NCBI RefSeq assembly: GCF_025490915.1
Contig: NZ_JANQBA010000002.1
Coordinates: 124,001 to 188,000, forward strand
Direction: 5' to 3'
Length of the DNA: 64,000 bases
Source of the DNA: Lacticaseibacillus parakribbianus
GTDB lineage: Bacteria > Bacillota > Bacilli > Lactobacillales > Lactobacillaceae
Shown here: positions 8,666 to 12,278 of the stretch, one piece after another
Layout of the letters: every line of letters starts with the position of its first letter
Numbering within the stretch: the stretch's first letter is position 1
Notes under the pieces: model-generated
The model's input: the letters and a program-made list of their open reading frames with translations, nothing else
What the model was told of the DNA's origin: nothing
Databases searched by the model: none
Made by a program: the position numbers and the translations under genes

Positions 8666-9550
8666 ATGAACTATCTTGTCACCGGCGCCACCGGCCACCT
8701 CGGCTCGCGGGTGGTCGAAAGACTCAGCGAACGCGTTGGCGCAGGCGCCGTCACCGCCGCCGTTCACACCCCGGCCAAGGCGACTGCGCTGGTCGCCCGA
8801 GGCGTTCGCGTGGTCGCCTGCGACTACCTGAGCGTCGCTGGCATGACGGCGGCCTTCACGGACCAAGACGTGGTGATCGTCATTCCCAGCAAAACCTACG
8901 ATCTCGTGCAGCGCATCCAGGAGTTCGAGAACACGATTCAGGCGCTAACCGCCGCCAAGGTCGCGGGGGTCGTGTTCGTCAGCTTTTTTGCCGACCAGGA
9001 ACGCAACCCCTTCGTCATGTCGCCCTACTACGCGTACGCGCCAAGGCGCCTGGCGACCAGCGGCCTCACCTACGCCGTGGTCAAAAACGCGCTGTACGCC
9101 GACCCCTTGGTGCCGTATTTGCCCGAGCTGATTCAGCGCCAGGCGCTGATCTACCCGGTCGGGTCACAGAAGCTCAGCTTCATCACGCTGGCCGACAGCG
9201 CCACTGCGATCGCCGCCTTGGCGACCCAGCCGGCCCTGCGCGACCGGGGCCAAAGCTACCTGCTGAGCCAGTCAACCGCGCTGAGCATGCCGGCCTTGGG
9301 TCGCATCATGAGTGACGTCACCGGCCGGCCGATCGGGTATCACCCGGTGTCGAACCGCGAGTTTGGCCGCATCTACGCGGCGGAAGGCGACGGGGCGGAG
9401 CTCGCCAGCATGTACGCCGCCGGGGCCCTGGGCCTGCTCGGTGGGGTGAGCGCCGATTACCGCCGGCTGACCGGCTACGAGCCGGAAGGCATGGCCGCGT
9501 TTTTGACCCGCGAATACCGGCCGCGACCGGCGGGAGGGGACCGCGCATGA
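8666..9550 (+). CDS. NmrA-like NAD(P)-binding oxidoreductase (quinone reductase QorB type)
   Basis: A 294-residue atypical short-chain dehydrogenase with the dinucleotide motif VTGATGHLGSRVVE at its start. The layout NxxLYAD and DSATAIAALA is that of NmrA/QorB proteins, which reduce quinones or act as redox-sensing NADP binders. An AAGGAGG at the end of the preceding gene lies 8 nt before the ATG. The stop overlaps the Rrf2 start by 4 nt. Its place between an ergothioneine-type importer and an Rrf2 regulator suggests a role in redox stress, which is inference. Confidence 0.85.
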   Translation: MNYLVTGATGHLGSRVVERLSERVGAGAVTAAVHTPAKATALVARGVRVVACDYLSVAGMTAAFTDQDVVIVIPSKTYDLVQRIQEFENTIQALTAAKVAGVVFVSFFADQERNPFVMSPYYAYAPRRLATSGLTYAVVKNALYADPLVPYLPELIQRQALIYPVGSQKLSFITLADSATAIAALATQPALRDRGQSYLLSQSTALSMPALGRIMSDVTGRPIGYHPVSNREFGRIYAAEGDGAELASMYAAGALGLLGGVSADYRRLTGYEPEGMAAFLTREYRPRPAGGDRA

Positions 9551-9984
9551 AGTATTCGCACAAGCTGAGCGACGCGGTTCACATTCTCGCCTTCGTCGAG
9601 ATCTACGCCGGCACCGACCTGTCCAGCACCGCGATTGCCAGAAGCGTCGAGGCCAACCCCAGCGCGGTGCGGCAGCTGATGGCCAAGCTGGTCAAGGCCG
9701 GCCTGCTCAACAGTCAGCCGGGCAAGGTCGCCCCGACGCTGGCCAAGCCACCGGCCGCCATCACCCTGCTGGACGTCTACCGCGCCGTCGAAGGCCGCCC
9801 CGACCTGCTGCACATCGACCCCAAGACCAACCCGCTGTGCCGCGTCGGCGGCAACATCCAAGACACACTCACCGGCCTTTACGCTTCGGTGCAGCGAGAC
9901 GCCGAGGCCAGCATGGCCACGCACACGCTGGCCGAGATCATCGCAGACCTCCTCAAGCGCGACGCACAGAAGCGGCGCAAGTAG
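9547..9984 (+). CDS. Rrf2 family transcriptional regulator
   Basis: A 145-residue protein with the Rrf2 winged-helix start (KLSDAVHILAFV, then AIARSVEANPSAVRQLMAKL) and the typical tail with NPLCRVGGNIQ. Only one cysteine is present, so the three-Cys iron-sulfur cluster of IscR/NsrR is not possible. A single-thiol sensor like YwnA/SaiR-type Rrf2 proteins is more likely. It is the last gene of the egtV-egtU-oxidoreductase operon (4-nt overlap) and probably autoregulates it. A terminator follows within 3 nt. Confidence 0.88.
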   Translation: MKYSHKLSDAVHILAFVEIYAGTDLSSTAIARSVEANPSAVRQLMAKLVKAGLLNSQPGKVAPTLAKPPAAITLLDVYRAVEGRPDLLHIDPKTNPLCRVGGNIQDTLTGLYASVQRDAEASMATHTLAEIIADLLKRDAQKRRK

Positions 9985-9986
9985 CA

Positions 9987-10017
9987 GCACCCGGCCGGAT
10001 TGCGGCCGGGTGCTTTT
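9987..10017 (+). terminator. Terminator of the egtV-rrf2 operon
   Basis: A 10-bp stem GCACCCGGCC with GGCCGGGTGC and a 7-nt loop, followed by TTTT. Confidence 0.9.
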
Positions 10018-10036
10018 GGGTTGCCTTGGGCCAATC

Positions 10037-10071
10037 AAAAAACGCCCGGCGCAACCGTGACGTTGCGCCGG
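10037..10071 (-). terminator. Terminator of the candidate RNA
   Basis: On the minus strand a 10-bp perfect stem (CCGGCGCAAC with GTTGCGCCGG, 6-nt loop) is followed by GCG and six T. No minus-strand protein gene precedes it, which is what drew attention to the RNA. Confidence 0.75.
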
Positions 10072-10448
10072 ACGCGCCGAAGCCACCCAGCGACGGGCGC
10101 TCGGCGGCTAAGGCTTGCTGATTGGTGATTGACGCTGGTTTCGCCCCCGCGAGCCGGCACAGGTCGACTCGTGGTACATGCTGGTACAAGCTCCCTGTCA
10201 GTTCGGCACCGCAGCTACCTCGCGTTGCGAGTAGGCACCGGACTGTGCGGCAGGAAGATGGTGGTCCACACCCTGGTGGTCGGTCCCAATCGGAGGGGAC
10301 CGTTGCGCGAAAACGTCGGCGTTGTTGCCTGGTACGGCATGGCATGAGTGGGGGTACTGGAGATGCTTATGCTCCGGACCTTCCCCCTAAGCAGTAGAGA
10401 CACAATCGCTGCGGCCGCAGTGATTTCCCTGCCCGTTGACAATCATCT
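10037..10448 (-). ncRNA. Candidate structured non-coding RNA, about 410 nt
   Basis: No plausible protein lies between 10018 and 10519. On the minus strand a strong promoter (10455-10483) and a terminator (10037-10071) bracket about 410 nt. The segment is dense in hairpins. Examples on the minus strand are CACTGCGGCCGCAGCGA near 10400, GGGGG paired with CCCCC around 10350-10385, GGTCCC with GGGACC (10282-10301), CTACTCGCAACGCGAGGTAG (10215-10234) and GAGTCG with CGGCTC near 10160. It lacks the GAGGAAAGTCC of RNase P RNA, the SRP RNA GGAAG tetraloop region and a tmRNA tag reading frame, so it was not assigned to any of these. It could also be a long regulatory leader, but no gene follows on that strand. 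Confidence 0.55.
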
Positions 10449-10454
10449 GAAGCT

Positions 10455-10483
10455 AGTGTAAGCCCTGCCATTTGAACCGTCAA
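10455..10483 (-). promoter_or_regulatory. Promoter of the candidate RNA
   Basis: On the minus strand TTGACG (10478-10483), a 17-nt spacer and TACACT (10455-10460) make a near-consensus housekeeping promoter. The transcript would start near 10448. Confidence 0.65.
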
Positions 10484-10519
10484 CTTTAAAGCTCACGCGT
10501 TCTCCTCAGGCAGATTTCG

Positions 10520-10547
10520 TTACATTTTGGCCGCTGCCGGTTATACT
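10520..10547 (+). promoter_or_regulatory. Promoter of the repeat-containing hypothetical gene
   Basis: TTACAT (10520-10525) and TATACT (10542-10547) are 16 nt apart and end 27 nt before the ATG at 10575. Confidence 0.5.
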
Positions 10548-10574
10548 GGCGAAAACGGGAAGGTCGGTGCTTCA

Positions 10575-12278
10575 ATGACACAATTACCCCTGCGATTAAC
10601 TGCAACGATTATCGGTGGCTACTCCGGTTCCTTACTCACACCTTCATTCGAACCGGTACAACGCCCCTGGCTGGCCGTTCGAGTCTCCGCGATTACACTG
10701 GCAAATGATGCCGTGTTCGAAATCTCGGCGACGCCAGCATATCTCGCCTTTCAACCCACCGCCGCCCCCTTAGGCCTGCTGTGGCGAACCGGGGACCAGC
10801 TGCAGATTACCAGCACCCTTGAAATGTGGCGCGAACTCCCGACCGTCGCCGCATTGACTGCCATTCGTCGAATCGTCGACTCGGCACGACTAACCACTGG
10901 CCGTGCAGCCGCCAACTGGTTAACGTGGGTTCAGGAGCCGGCACGGCGACGCACGATTGCCGACCTCGTCACGGACTATCAAGCCGGGCGGCTATCCTTC
11001 GCCGTTTTTCAGGAACGCGTCGCGGCCTTAGCCCGACCGCTACCGTCAAAAATTCGCCTCCAGCTCGCCCATGTTCAGCAGGCCCAAATCGCCTTGATGC
11101 GCCAGGTCTACGCCGAACTCGACGCCTTGGCGCCGGAACACTTGGTGATCGCCGCACCGACCCAGCTGCGGCTGCTTCAAGCGGCGCCACCGGACGAGCG
11201 GCCGGCGTATCCCGTCGACTCGGCCAGGCTGGCCGATCCGGCCTACCAGGCGGCGCTGCTCGCGACCATCACCCCAGCCGCCGACACCGATCCCGGCCTG
11301 CCGCTGGATCCCCCGAGTACCGCACCGTCGCCGCTCACGCCGTACCGCATCCGGCTTCGCACCACTGTGGCGCAGACCCGGCCGCGGTCGCAGCGCCAGC
11401 GGCTTGAGGTCACGGTTGACCGCGCGACCACCGCTTTAGTGCTCGATGACCGCGACCACCCCCACGCCCAAGACGGCCTGCTGGCGACGGTCGCGGCCGC
11501 CACCGCGGTGGAAAAATTCAACGCGCAGGAAGAAAGCTTCAGCGGCGACCTGCACCTCCAGCCACACGTCCCGGTGCTGCTGGTCTTTGACGCCGCCTTG
11601 ATTCGCCTGCAGCTCAGCCTGGGCTGGCAGGGCAGCCTGACCGGTCGGCTCCGGCTGGTTCGCGTGATCGCGGCCAAGCGCGTCTCCGACCTGCGCCACG
11701 CCCGGGCGGCGGCGGTGGCCAAAATCACCGCGCTGACCCGGCGGCAGGCCAAACAGGTCGCGGCGGCCACCGCTCGCCTCAAGTCGGCGCAGCAGGCAGC
11801 CACGTCAACTGCCGGCCAAGCGGCCAGGTCGGCCACCGGCCAGGCAATCACGTCAATCGCCGGCCAAGCAGCCGCGTCGGCCACCGACCAGGCGGCCACG
11901 TCAACTGCCGGTCAGGCCGCGGTCCGGGCAGCGGCGGGTCGGGCCGTCGCCTTCCAGGCCCCCCTGACCGAGCTGGCCAAGCAGCTACAAACCGGCCGCC
12001 TGCCCTTCGCCGCCTACCAGACCCAGGTCGCGACGCTGCTGGGCGAGAATACCAAGCTGGCCAACGCGCGTCAGGCCGCGTGGAACCGCTACGTGAGCAG
12101 CCGCGAGGCGCTGACGCGGCCGGTCTACCTGTTGTCCGGCGTTTCCGCTCATCAGTTCACAGCCGGTGGCGCGATGATGCGCCAGTTGACCATCGAACCC
12201 GCCGGCCTGAGCCGGGCGAGCTACCGCCACCAGCTGTTCGCGCAGTGGCAGGCCAACGCGCAACACGCGGTGTGGTGA
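10575..12278 (+). CDS. Hypothetical protein with an octapeptide-repeat region
   Basis: A 567-residue protein that I do not recognise. It has no signal peptide or membrane helix. The first 380 residues are mixed and globular-looking. A strongly basic helix-prone stretch (residues about 375-409, rich in Ala, Lys, Arg) leads into at least five 8-residue repeats of the type TSTAGQAA / RSATGQAI (residues 410-455). A second segment echoes an early one: ADLVTDYQAGRLSFAVFQ near residue 135 and AKQLQTGRLPFAAYQTQV near residue 470. This suggests a duplicated short-domain-like motif either side of the protein. ATG at 10575 was chosen because it follows the promoter. The gene stands alone between the RNA candidate and prs. 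Confidence 0.8.
   Translation: MTQLPLRLTATIIGGYSGSLLTPSFEPVQRPWLAVRVSAITLANDAVFEISATPAYLAFQPTAAPLGLLWRTGDQLQITSTLEMWRELPTVAALTAIRRIVDSARLTTGRAAANWLTWVQEPARRRTIADLVTDYQAGRLSFAVFQERVAALARPLPSKIRLQLAHVQQAQIALMRQVYAELDALAPEHLVIAAPTQLRLLQAAPPDERPAYPVDSARLADPAYQAALLATITPAADTDPGLPLDPPSTAPSPLTPYRIRLRTTVAQTRPRSQRQRLEVTVDRATTALVLDDRDHPHAQDGLLATVAAATAVEKFNAQEESFSGDLHLQPHVPVLLVFDAALIRLQLSLGWQGSLTGRLRLVRVIAAKRVSDLRHARAAAVAKITALTRRQAKQVAAATARLKSAQQAATSTAGQAARSATGQAITSIAGQAAASATDQAATSTAGQAAVRAAAGRAVAFQAPLTELAKQLQTGRLPFAAYQTQVATLLGENTKLANARQAAWNRYVSSREALTRPVYLLSGVSAHQFTAGGAMMRQLTIEPAGLSRASYRHQLFAQWQANAQHAVW
11802..11945 (+). repeat. Coding 24-bp tandem repeat
   Basis: Six consecutive 24-bp units, the last degenerate, encode octapeptides TSTAGQAA, RSATGQAI, TSIAGQAA, ASATDQAA, TSTAGQAA and VRAAAGRA. 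Alternate units are most alike, so the true period may be 48 bp. Such in-frame repeats are prone to copy-number change. Confidence 0.85.

Follow-up and report, generated by a model that had tools for sequence, protein, structure and literature searches.

A probable family of dispersed structured non-coding RNA genes in Lacticaseibacillus parakribbianus

What is encoded by the roughly 400 nucleotides that lie between an Rrf2-type regulator gene (9547-9984, + strand) and a gene at 10575-12278 (also on the + strand, with an inferred start codon) in Lacticaseibacillus parakribbianus? The region forms part of a stretch of 64,000 nucleotides that was analysed as a whole (the window), and a preliminary description had proposed for it a structured RNA of unassigned, possibly new, class that carries both a promoter and a terminator of its own. 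The minus-strand promoter could be found as described, with TTGACG (10483-10478) followed after 17 nt by TACACT (10460-10455), a match of 9/12 to the consensus. Between positions 9900 and 10700 there were two promoter-like sites, this one and another on the plus strand (10519-10547), against 0.1 ± 0.4 in shuffled sequences. The terminator follows at a distance of about 410 nt from the promoter, as first described, and consists of a minus-strand stem at 10075-10042 with 14 pairs, 10 of them G-C, and six T (10042-10037). Two terminator-like sites were detected in the same scan, that of the window RNA and one located after the Rrf2 gene on the plus strand, and since shuffled sequences give 0.9 ± 1.0 such sites the window terminator alone is weak evidence.

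The hairpins that had been drawn on the transcript are poor evidence when a single sequence is considered. The minus-strand fold had an MFE of -174.1 (z -1.82) and 5 of 100 shuffled sequences folded equally well, while the plus strand gave a z of -1.72. A fold that is barely better than the shuffles means that drawable hairpins prove nothing and that the case rests on comparison. The comparison of 53 copies did support the helices by covariation, and in this form the earlier claim of a structured RNA can be kept.

Searching 60 related genomes by blastn retrieved 11 long matches in the genome to which the window belongs (G000, 2.82 Mb in 32 contigs) and short ones in Lacticaseibacillus kribbianus YH-lac21 (G006). 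The first 11 copies aligned from G000 were alike from an A/T-rich box to a GGTGGCTTCGGCGCG-like motif that precedes the terminator region, and four short L. kribbianus matches corresponded to the 3' ends of full-length relatives carrying their own promoters. A covariance model of the 3' half of the RNA (R2) identified, among the 80 candidates scored per genome, at least 53 sites in G000 with E <= 3.1e-23. In L. kribbianus there were at least nine in the same E range, plus five weaker ones (1.9e-11 to 8.4e-5) that constitute a third subfamily, C. G000 has six additional copies, two of them C-like and the other four belonging to a fourth subfamily, D. The totals are at least about 59 copies in G000, one per ~48 kb of 2.8 Mb, and at least 14 in L. 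kribbianus. Describing a single gene was therefore incomplete as a view of this locus, the window RNA (copy L075) being, by its sequence, a member of a set of about 59 paralogues. Three copies (L100, L116 and L072) are located at or near the ends of G000 contigs C2, C6 and C14, an indication that the assembly is interrupted by the repeats and may understate the number of copies. The D copies (L210, L212, L214 and L216, all in G000) were found through a weak match to C, and they have near-identical 5' ends and the promoter TTGCCA-17-TAAGCT.

A total of 57 copies was collected and, with four partial ones excluded, 53 were aligned (45 from G000 and 8 from L. kribbianus); these alignments do not include five further full copies of G000 (L196-L200). 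The left edge of the conserved unit is the A/T-rich box GAGCTTTAAAG (10484-10494, on the minus strand like all the elements that follow), directly upstream of the -35 hexamer. Its GAGC is invariant across the 11 type-A copies aligned first, and subfamilies C and D have a comparable box, CGAGC-TTAAAA. The TTGAC of the -35 hexamer TTGACG (10478-10483) is separated from the 5' motif by the same distance in every one of the 53 copies. A strict promoter rule, which shuffled sequences pass at a rate of 1.3%, was passed by 39 of the 53, always with the 17-nt spacer that separates the -35 from the -10 hexamer TACACT (10455-10460) in the window and with the 5' motif 5 nt further on. In the 14 that did not pass, the sequence is TTGAC-17-TAAGCT or TAGGCT. 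At the other end, the intrinsic terminator (10037-10075, stem plus six T in the window) has its equivalent, a stem followed by TTTT by rule, in 41 of the 53 copies (shuffled rate 2.5%). The stems of these terminators vary in sequence among copies with the pairing mostly kept (93-95% of cells). From the 5' motif to the T-run the copies measure 378-447 nt, with a median of 405. In the window the structured RNA would cover ~413 nt (10037-10449), its 5' end being predicted from the alignment and the distance to the -10 hexamer.

Types A and B were folded separately with RNAalifold and showed a similar architecture. It opens with a short 5' hairpin, followed by a long hairpin that encloses a second one and by a multi-branched middle part; a long forked helix comes next, and a 3' hairpin precedes the terminator. 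The 5' hairpin H1 (10437-10448) contains an ATGAT invariant in 53 of 53 rows and has two-sided changes in two of its four pairs, with 93% of the cells paired. In H2 with its inner hairpin (10388-10434) such changes affect 14 of 15 pairs and 92-96% of the cells are paired. An ACCAGGG (10271-10277) is invariant at its aligned place in all 53 copies. The long forked helix (10191-10257), which contains CTACTCGC..GCGAGGTAG, has two-sided changes in 12 of 16 pairs and 95-99% of its cells paired. It is followed by a copy-specific variable segment with a linker (10110-10190), recognized from the copy-to-copy identity over ~10190-10086, and by the 3' hairpin (10081-10109), ending in GGTGGCTT, where 4 of the 11 pairs have two-sided changes and 96% of the cells are paired.

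Over the two halves of the 53-row alignments 95.1% and 96.0% of the cells were paired, with two-sided changes in 18 of 25 and 16 of 27 pairs (34 of 52 altogether), and the pairing fell to 38-48% when the partners were slid by 1-3 columns. In the 5' half the number of further pair types was not above that of the shuffles (356 of 500). Because these pair counts were made on the very sequences and alignments that had served to predict the structures, they are biased in favour of them. A tree-based null was also applied to 21 type-A and 19 type-B rows, leaving aside 13 copies in which the T-run was missing or unclearly placed. At E < 0.05 it retained 11 of 109 pairs in A and 6 of 104 in B, compared with 0.1% and 0.05% of the other column pairs. 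The power of this test is limited because only 26 (A) and 11 (B) pairs have at least six substitutions, and recombination between copies violates its single-tree assumption. By both approaches compensatory changes lie above the background, and the stems were kept through them, the outcome expected of homologues of a structured RNA.

The statement that no protein gene is encoded on the minus strand also held. Mechanical ORFs of 75 and 130 aa overlap the window RNA on that strand, but their frames are not kept across the 53 copies. The position of the closed sense ORFs differs among copies, and their length is 16-116 aa (medians of 68 sense, 74 antisense and 57 shuffled), or 32-143 aa for the sense frames when those open at the end are included. 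The lengths of both halves of the RNA vary in all three residues modulo three, hence no reading frame is conserved. A Shine-Dalgarno-like start is found in three copies, among them L031 and L094 with 135-136 open codons, which is a point in favour of a protein-coding gene; this candidate was rejected, the frames not being kept over the 53 copies. A DNA transposon or MITE was rejected as well, there being neither terminal inverted repeats nor target-site duplications in 46 copies, whose ends gave direct and inverted matches no better than the cross-copy controls.

We have compared the orientation of 54 copies (45 from G000 and 9 from L. kribbianus) with that of their neighbours, using a GC-frame ORF heuristic in which four copies lacked one neighbour and two were flagged as ORF-overlapping. 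Among the 50 with both neighbours, 22 are in tandem gaps and co-oriented, 2 in tandem gaps against the genes, 21 in convergent and 5 in divergent gaps. The pattern resembles the placement of genes, and co-orientation with replication could explain it. A co-oriented terminator precedes 24 of the 53 copies (shuffled 2.3%). A cis-acting leader would be located upstream of, and co-directional with, a gene, and this arrangement is missing in the window copy and in 23 of the 50 copies; a downstream gene opposed in 23 of 50 argues against a leader role for many copies.

The divergent gene next to the window RNA (10575-12278, 567 aa) had no Pfam match. The flank of copy L098 is 81% identical over 691 bp to a region inside this gene (~11061-11749), and it also matches a shorter sequence adjoining the window RNA (78% over 72 bp). 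The same gene and the same arrangement appear to be present at L075 and L098, and the RNA and the gene may have been duplicated together; a related gene in the same arrangement indicates that the pair may stem from a larger duplication. No partner gene common to the flanks of the copies was found, nor any partner protein or target. AbiF with its antitoxin RNA (PMC12373285) was set aside as a parallel, because the flanks share no partner gene.

Is this one of the RNAs already known? No Rfam 15 family reached the gathering score, whether in the window or, at seven other loci, on the RNA; the sole match at these loci was an L13 leader elsewhere in L031. ARAGORN predicted no tRNA or tmRNA gene in the window. 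Rfam has models for RNase P RNA, SRP RNA, 6S, T-box, introns, ROOL, GOLLD and OLE. These negative results agree with the earlier statement that the RNA lacks the conserved cores of RNase P RNA, tmRNA and SRP RNA and, together with the conserved stems, they support the description of an unassigned structured RNA that may represent a new class. A permissive Rfam scan of 9500-11000 gave three sub-threshold matches, the best (E 0.47) on the terminator of a neighbouring gene; sot2652 (E 1.3) was found across the 3' end of the window RNA, and COG2908 (E 0.41) at the 3' end of L042 on the opposite strand, both below threshold. In locus L042 (272-509, minus strand) there is a T-box leader match slightly under the Rfam gathering score (84.7 vs 93 bits, E 2.2e-17). 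No report of this RNA family was found in open-licence PubMed Central.

The distribution of the family was narrow in the genomes searched. With R2 at E <= 1, matches were present in 13 of 30 genomes of the genus and were strong only in G000 and L. kribbianus; another congener (G004) had two copies at E 0.002 and the remaining ten matched genomes gave E values of 0.01-1. The two G004 units (L194 and L195) are 96% identical over ~390 nt, their upstream sequences differ and their 3' hairpin is, by eye, similar to that of the family. The fold of one of them was unremarkable (z -1.42), and they are possibly distant relatives or an independent multicopy RNA. With six candidates scored per genome, model R1 at E <= 0.01 had matches in 2 of 397 genomes of the family and 1 of 398 of the phylum, and R2 at the same threshold in 2 of 395 genomes of the order, namely G000 and, weakly, G004. 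A single hairpin pattern retrieved 47 stretches from genome contigs, eight of them from L. kribbianus. R1 recognized these eight (E <= 1.4e-16) and, at E <= 1, none of the remaining 39. With R2 the same eight came first, followed by L146 and L167 (E 0.001-0.004) and several more at E 0.03-1, matches that we read as reflecting the hairpin used to fetch them. In plasmid and phage collections blastn gave no match with the window unit or with a member of subfamily B, a subfamily C member had none in the plasmid collection, and three sequence patterns had none in viral contigs.

Some copies are found at corresponding places in G000 and L. kribbianus, and this provides information on how the family evolves. 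In the positional counterparts L041/L063, L044/L069 and L060/L074 the two RNAs are 56-72% identical, whereas each of them is 78-92% identical to the nearest copy in its own genome. The aligned flanks of the same pairs are 88-91%, 74-84% and 66-85% identical, respectively, L044/L069 being a loose counterpart in which the match to the right flank is displaced by 1.3 kb in L069. That copies are most alike within their own genome indicates either homogenisation or replacement of old copies at the same spots, and from these sequences concerted evolution or turnover appears to be the source of the likeness. Furthermore, over ~10190-10086, which takes in the variable segment and part of the 3' hairpin, the window copy has an identity of 93.6% with L031 and of 42-56% with the nine other listed copies of type A, while its 5' hairpins are 54% identical to L031 and up to 87% to others. 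Of 406 type-A pairs, 24 have such discordant 5' and 3' relations, the pair of the window copy with L031 included, which suggests that modules move between copies. L037 of G000 and L068 of L. kribbianus occupy one intergenic place in opposite orientation. The rpsI locus could be located in 30 of 30 congeners and R1 and R2 find the unit only in that of G000; in the other 29, R1 gave nothing at E <= 1 and R2 a single 36-nt match (E 0.07). No clean empty site was found, as the window locus is not syntenic in L. kribbianus and at rpsI the sequence on the far side of the unit differs there.

We are fairly confident that the feature in the window belongs to a large, new family of genes for structured non-coding RNAs that is dispersed over the genome. 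Each copy would be a self-contained transcription unit with the A/T box, a sigma-70-type promoter, an RNA of ~400 nt with several helices and, in 41 of 53 cases, a terminator. The best-supported account is that the RNAs are transcribed and would act in trans as RNA. Their action would probably be additive via dosage, as in the multicopy sRNAs of Listeria and Streptococcus, or that of an abundant structural RNA like ROOL, and the variable 3' segment may give the copies different partners or at least some diversity. Multicopy sRNAs are recognized by the presence, in one genome, of several homologous genes for non-coding RNAs, each with a promoter of its own, and at the sequence level this is found here. 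Strong matches in only 2 of 30 Lacticaseibacillus genomes are a narrow distribution for a host function and count against this explanation.

The same narrow distribution, together with ~59 dispersed copies in several amplified subfamilies, would suit a selfish non-autonomous RNA element, a promoter-bearing analogue of the SINEs spread by perhaps borrowed machinery and without a host function. The presence of the unit at rpsI in one genome out of 30 and the opposite orientation of L037 and L068 at their shared locus point in the same direction. Against such an element, target-site duplications are absent (4 of 46 flank pairs share at least 6 nt, control 11%) and so are inverted ends, the promoter is inside the unit, where a simple retro-copied transcript would have lost it, the copies are co-oriented with the neighbouring genes with promoter and fold maintained, and the L075/L098 pair may have spread within a larger duplication. 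We regard a selfish element as possible but not probable. That the family would be a bacterial self-propagating RNA gene, with its ~59 loci, within-genome likeness and exchange of 5' and 3' modules, and a spread that leaves neither target duplications nor inverted ends, is a more tentative idea that we find rather unlikely. By analogy with ROOL, GOLLD and OLE, the RNA might instead form a large particle, by self-assembly or together with a protein, many genes serving the dosage. The large conserved fold, the consensus-like promoters and the high copy number agree with it, and ROOL reaches the abundance of 16S rRNA in a Ligilactobacillus strain (PMC12286853, PMC5643018). No Rfam family at the gathering score and the absence from the phage, plasmid and viral collections searched speak against a particle RNA, which we judge distinctly unlikely. 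The selfish element and the particle are narrower accounts of why the family exists and overlap with the reading as a family of RNA genes.

Two further alternatives have very little probability. A cis-acting leader or attenuator, of the T-box or riboswitch type, would explain the terminator at the end of the unit, the many copies and the next gene on the same strand in 27 of 50 cases, but the window copy and 23 of 50 copies have an opposed downstream gene and no Rfam leader reached the gathering score, so that it is hardly credible here. A diverged housekeeping RNA (RNase P RNA, tmRNA, SRP RNA or 6S) or a group II intron remnant, for which the length range would fit, is just as hard to sustain with no Rfam family at the gathering score and no ARAGORN match. 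A housekeeping RNA would not be expected in about 59 diverged copies. For an intron it can be said that 24 of 53 copies lie behind a co-oriented terminator, and that IIC introns insert at intrinsic terminators (PMC4424553); the unit, on the other side, carries a promoter and a terminator of its own and is for this reason no intron.

We have found no precedent in open-licence PubMed Central for a structured RNA at ~59 loci with compensatory evolution and within-genome likeness, and the preferred reading of a family of RNA genes would imply either a host RNA needed at large dosage or a selfish RNA element with a so far undescribed mechanism of spreading. Several known systems resemble it in some respects. 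Multicopy homologous sRNAs are known in general as sibling sRNAs (PMC4211561). Listeria LhrC1-5 and the Streptococcus csRNAs are, like the present RNAs, several homologous and separately promoted non-coding RNA genes in one Firmicutes genome, with five copies each, those of LhrC virtually identical (PMC4132741), unlike the ~59 found here, which form diverged subfamilies with a large conserved fold. ROOL, which occurs in Ligilactobacillus, GOLLD, named after the Lactobacillales, and OLE are also large structured RNAs of poorly understood function (PMC12286853, PMC5643018). ROOL and GOLLD are longer in these accounts (659 nt in a ROOL example and often more than 800 nt for GOLLD, against ~400 nt for the window-type RNA) and were described in prophages and phages, while here the family is chromosomal and dispersed and has no Rfam match at the gathering score. 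The BRE repeats with the bprJ sRNAs of Betaproteobacteria are likewise repeated, mostly intergenic, associated with sRNAs and show signs of mobility, but as presented in PMC3110155 they are of ~90 bp, with at most 29 repeats per genome and some inside coding sequences, whereas here the unit measures 400 nt and carries a promoter and a terminator of its own. Group IIC introns are another structured RNA tied to intrinsic terminators (PMC4424553), and they differ in that the present unit has its own promoter and terminator and belongs to no Rfam family at the gathering score. In kind, the closest known systems are multicopy sRNAs such as LhrC and the csRNAs, together with the ornate large RNAs; the family recognized here from its sequence may or may not work like either.
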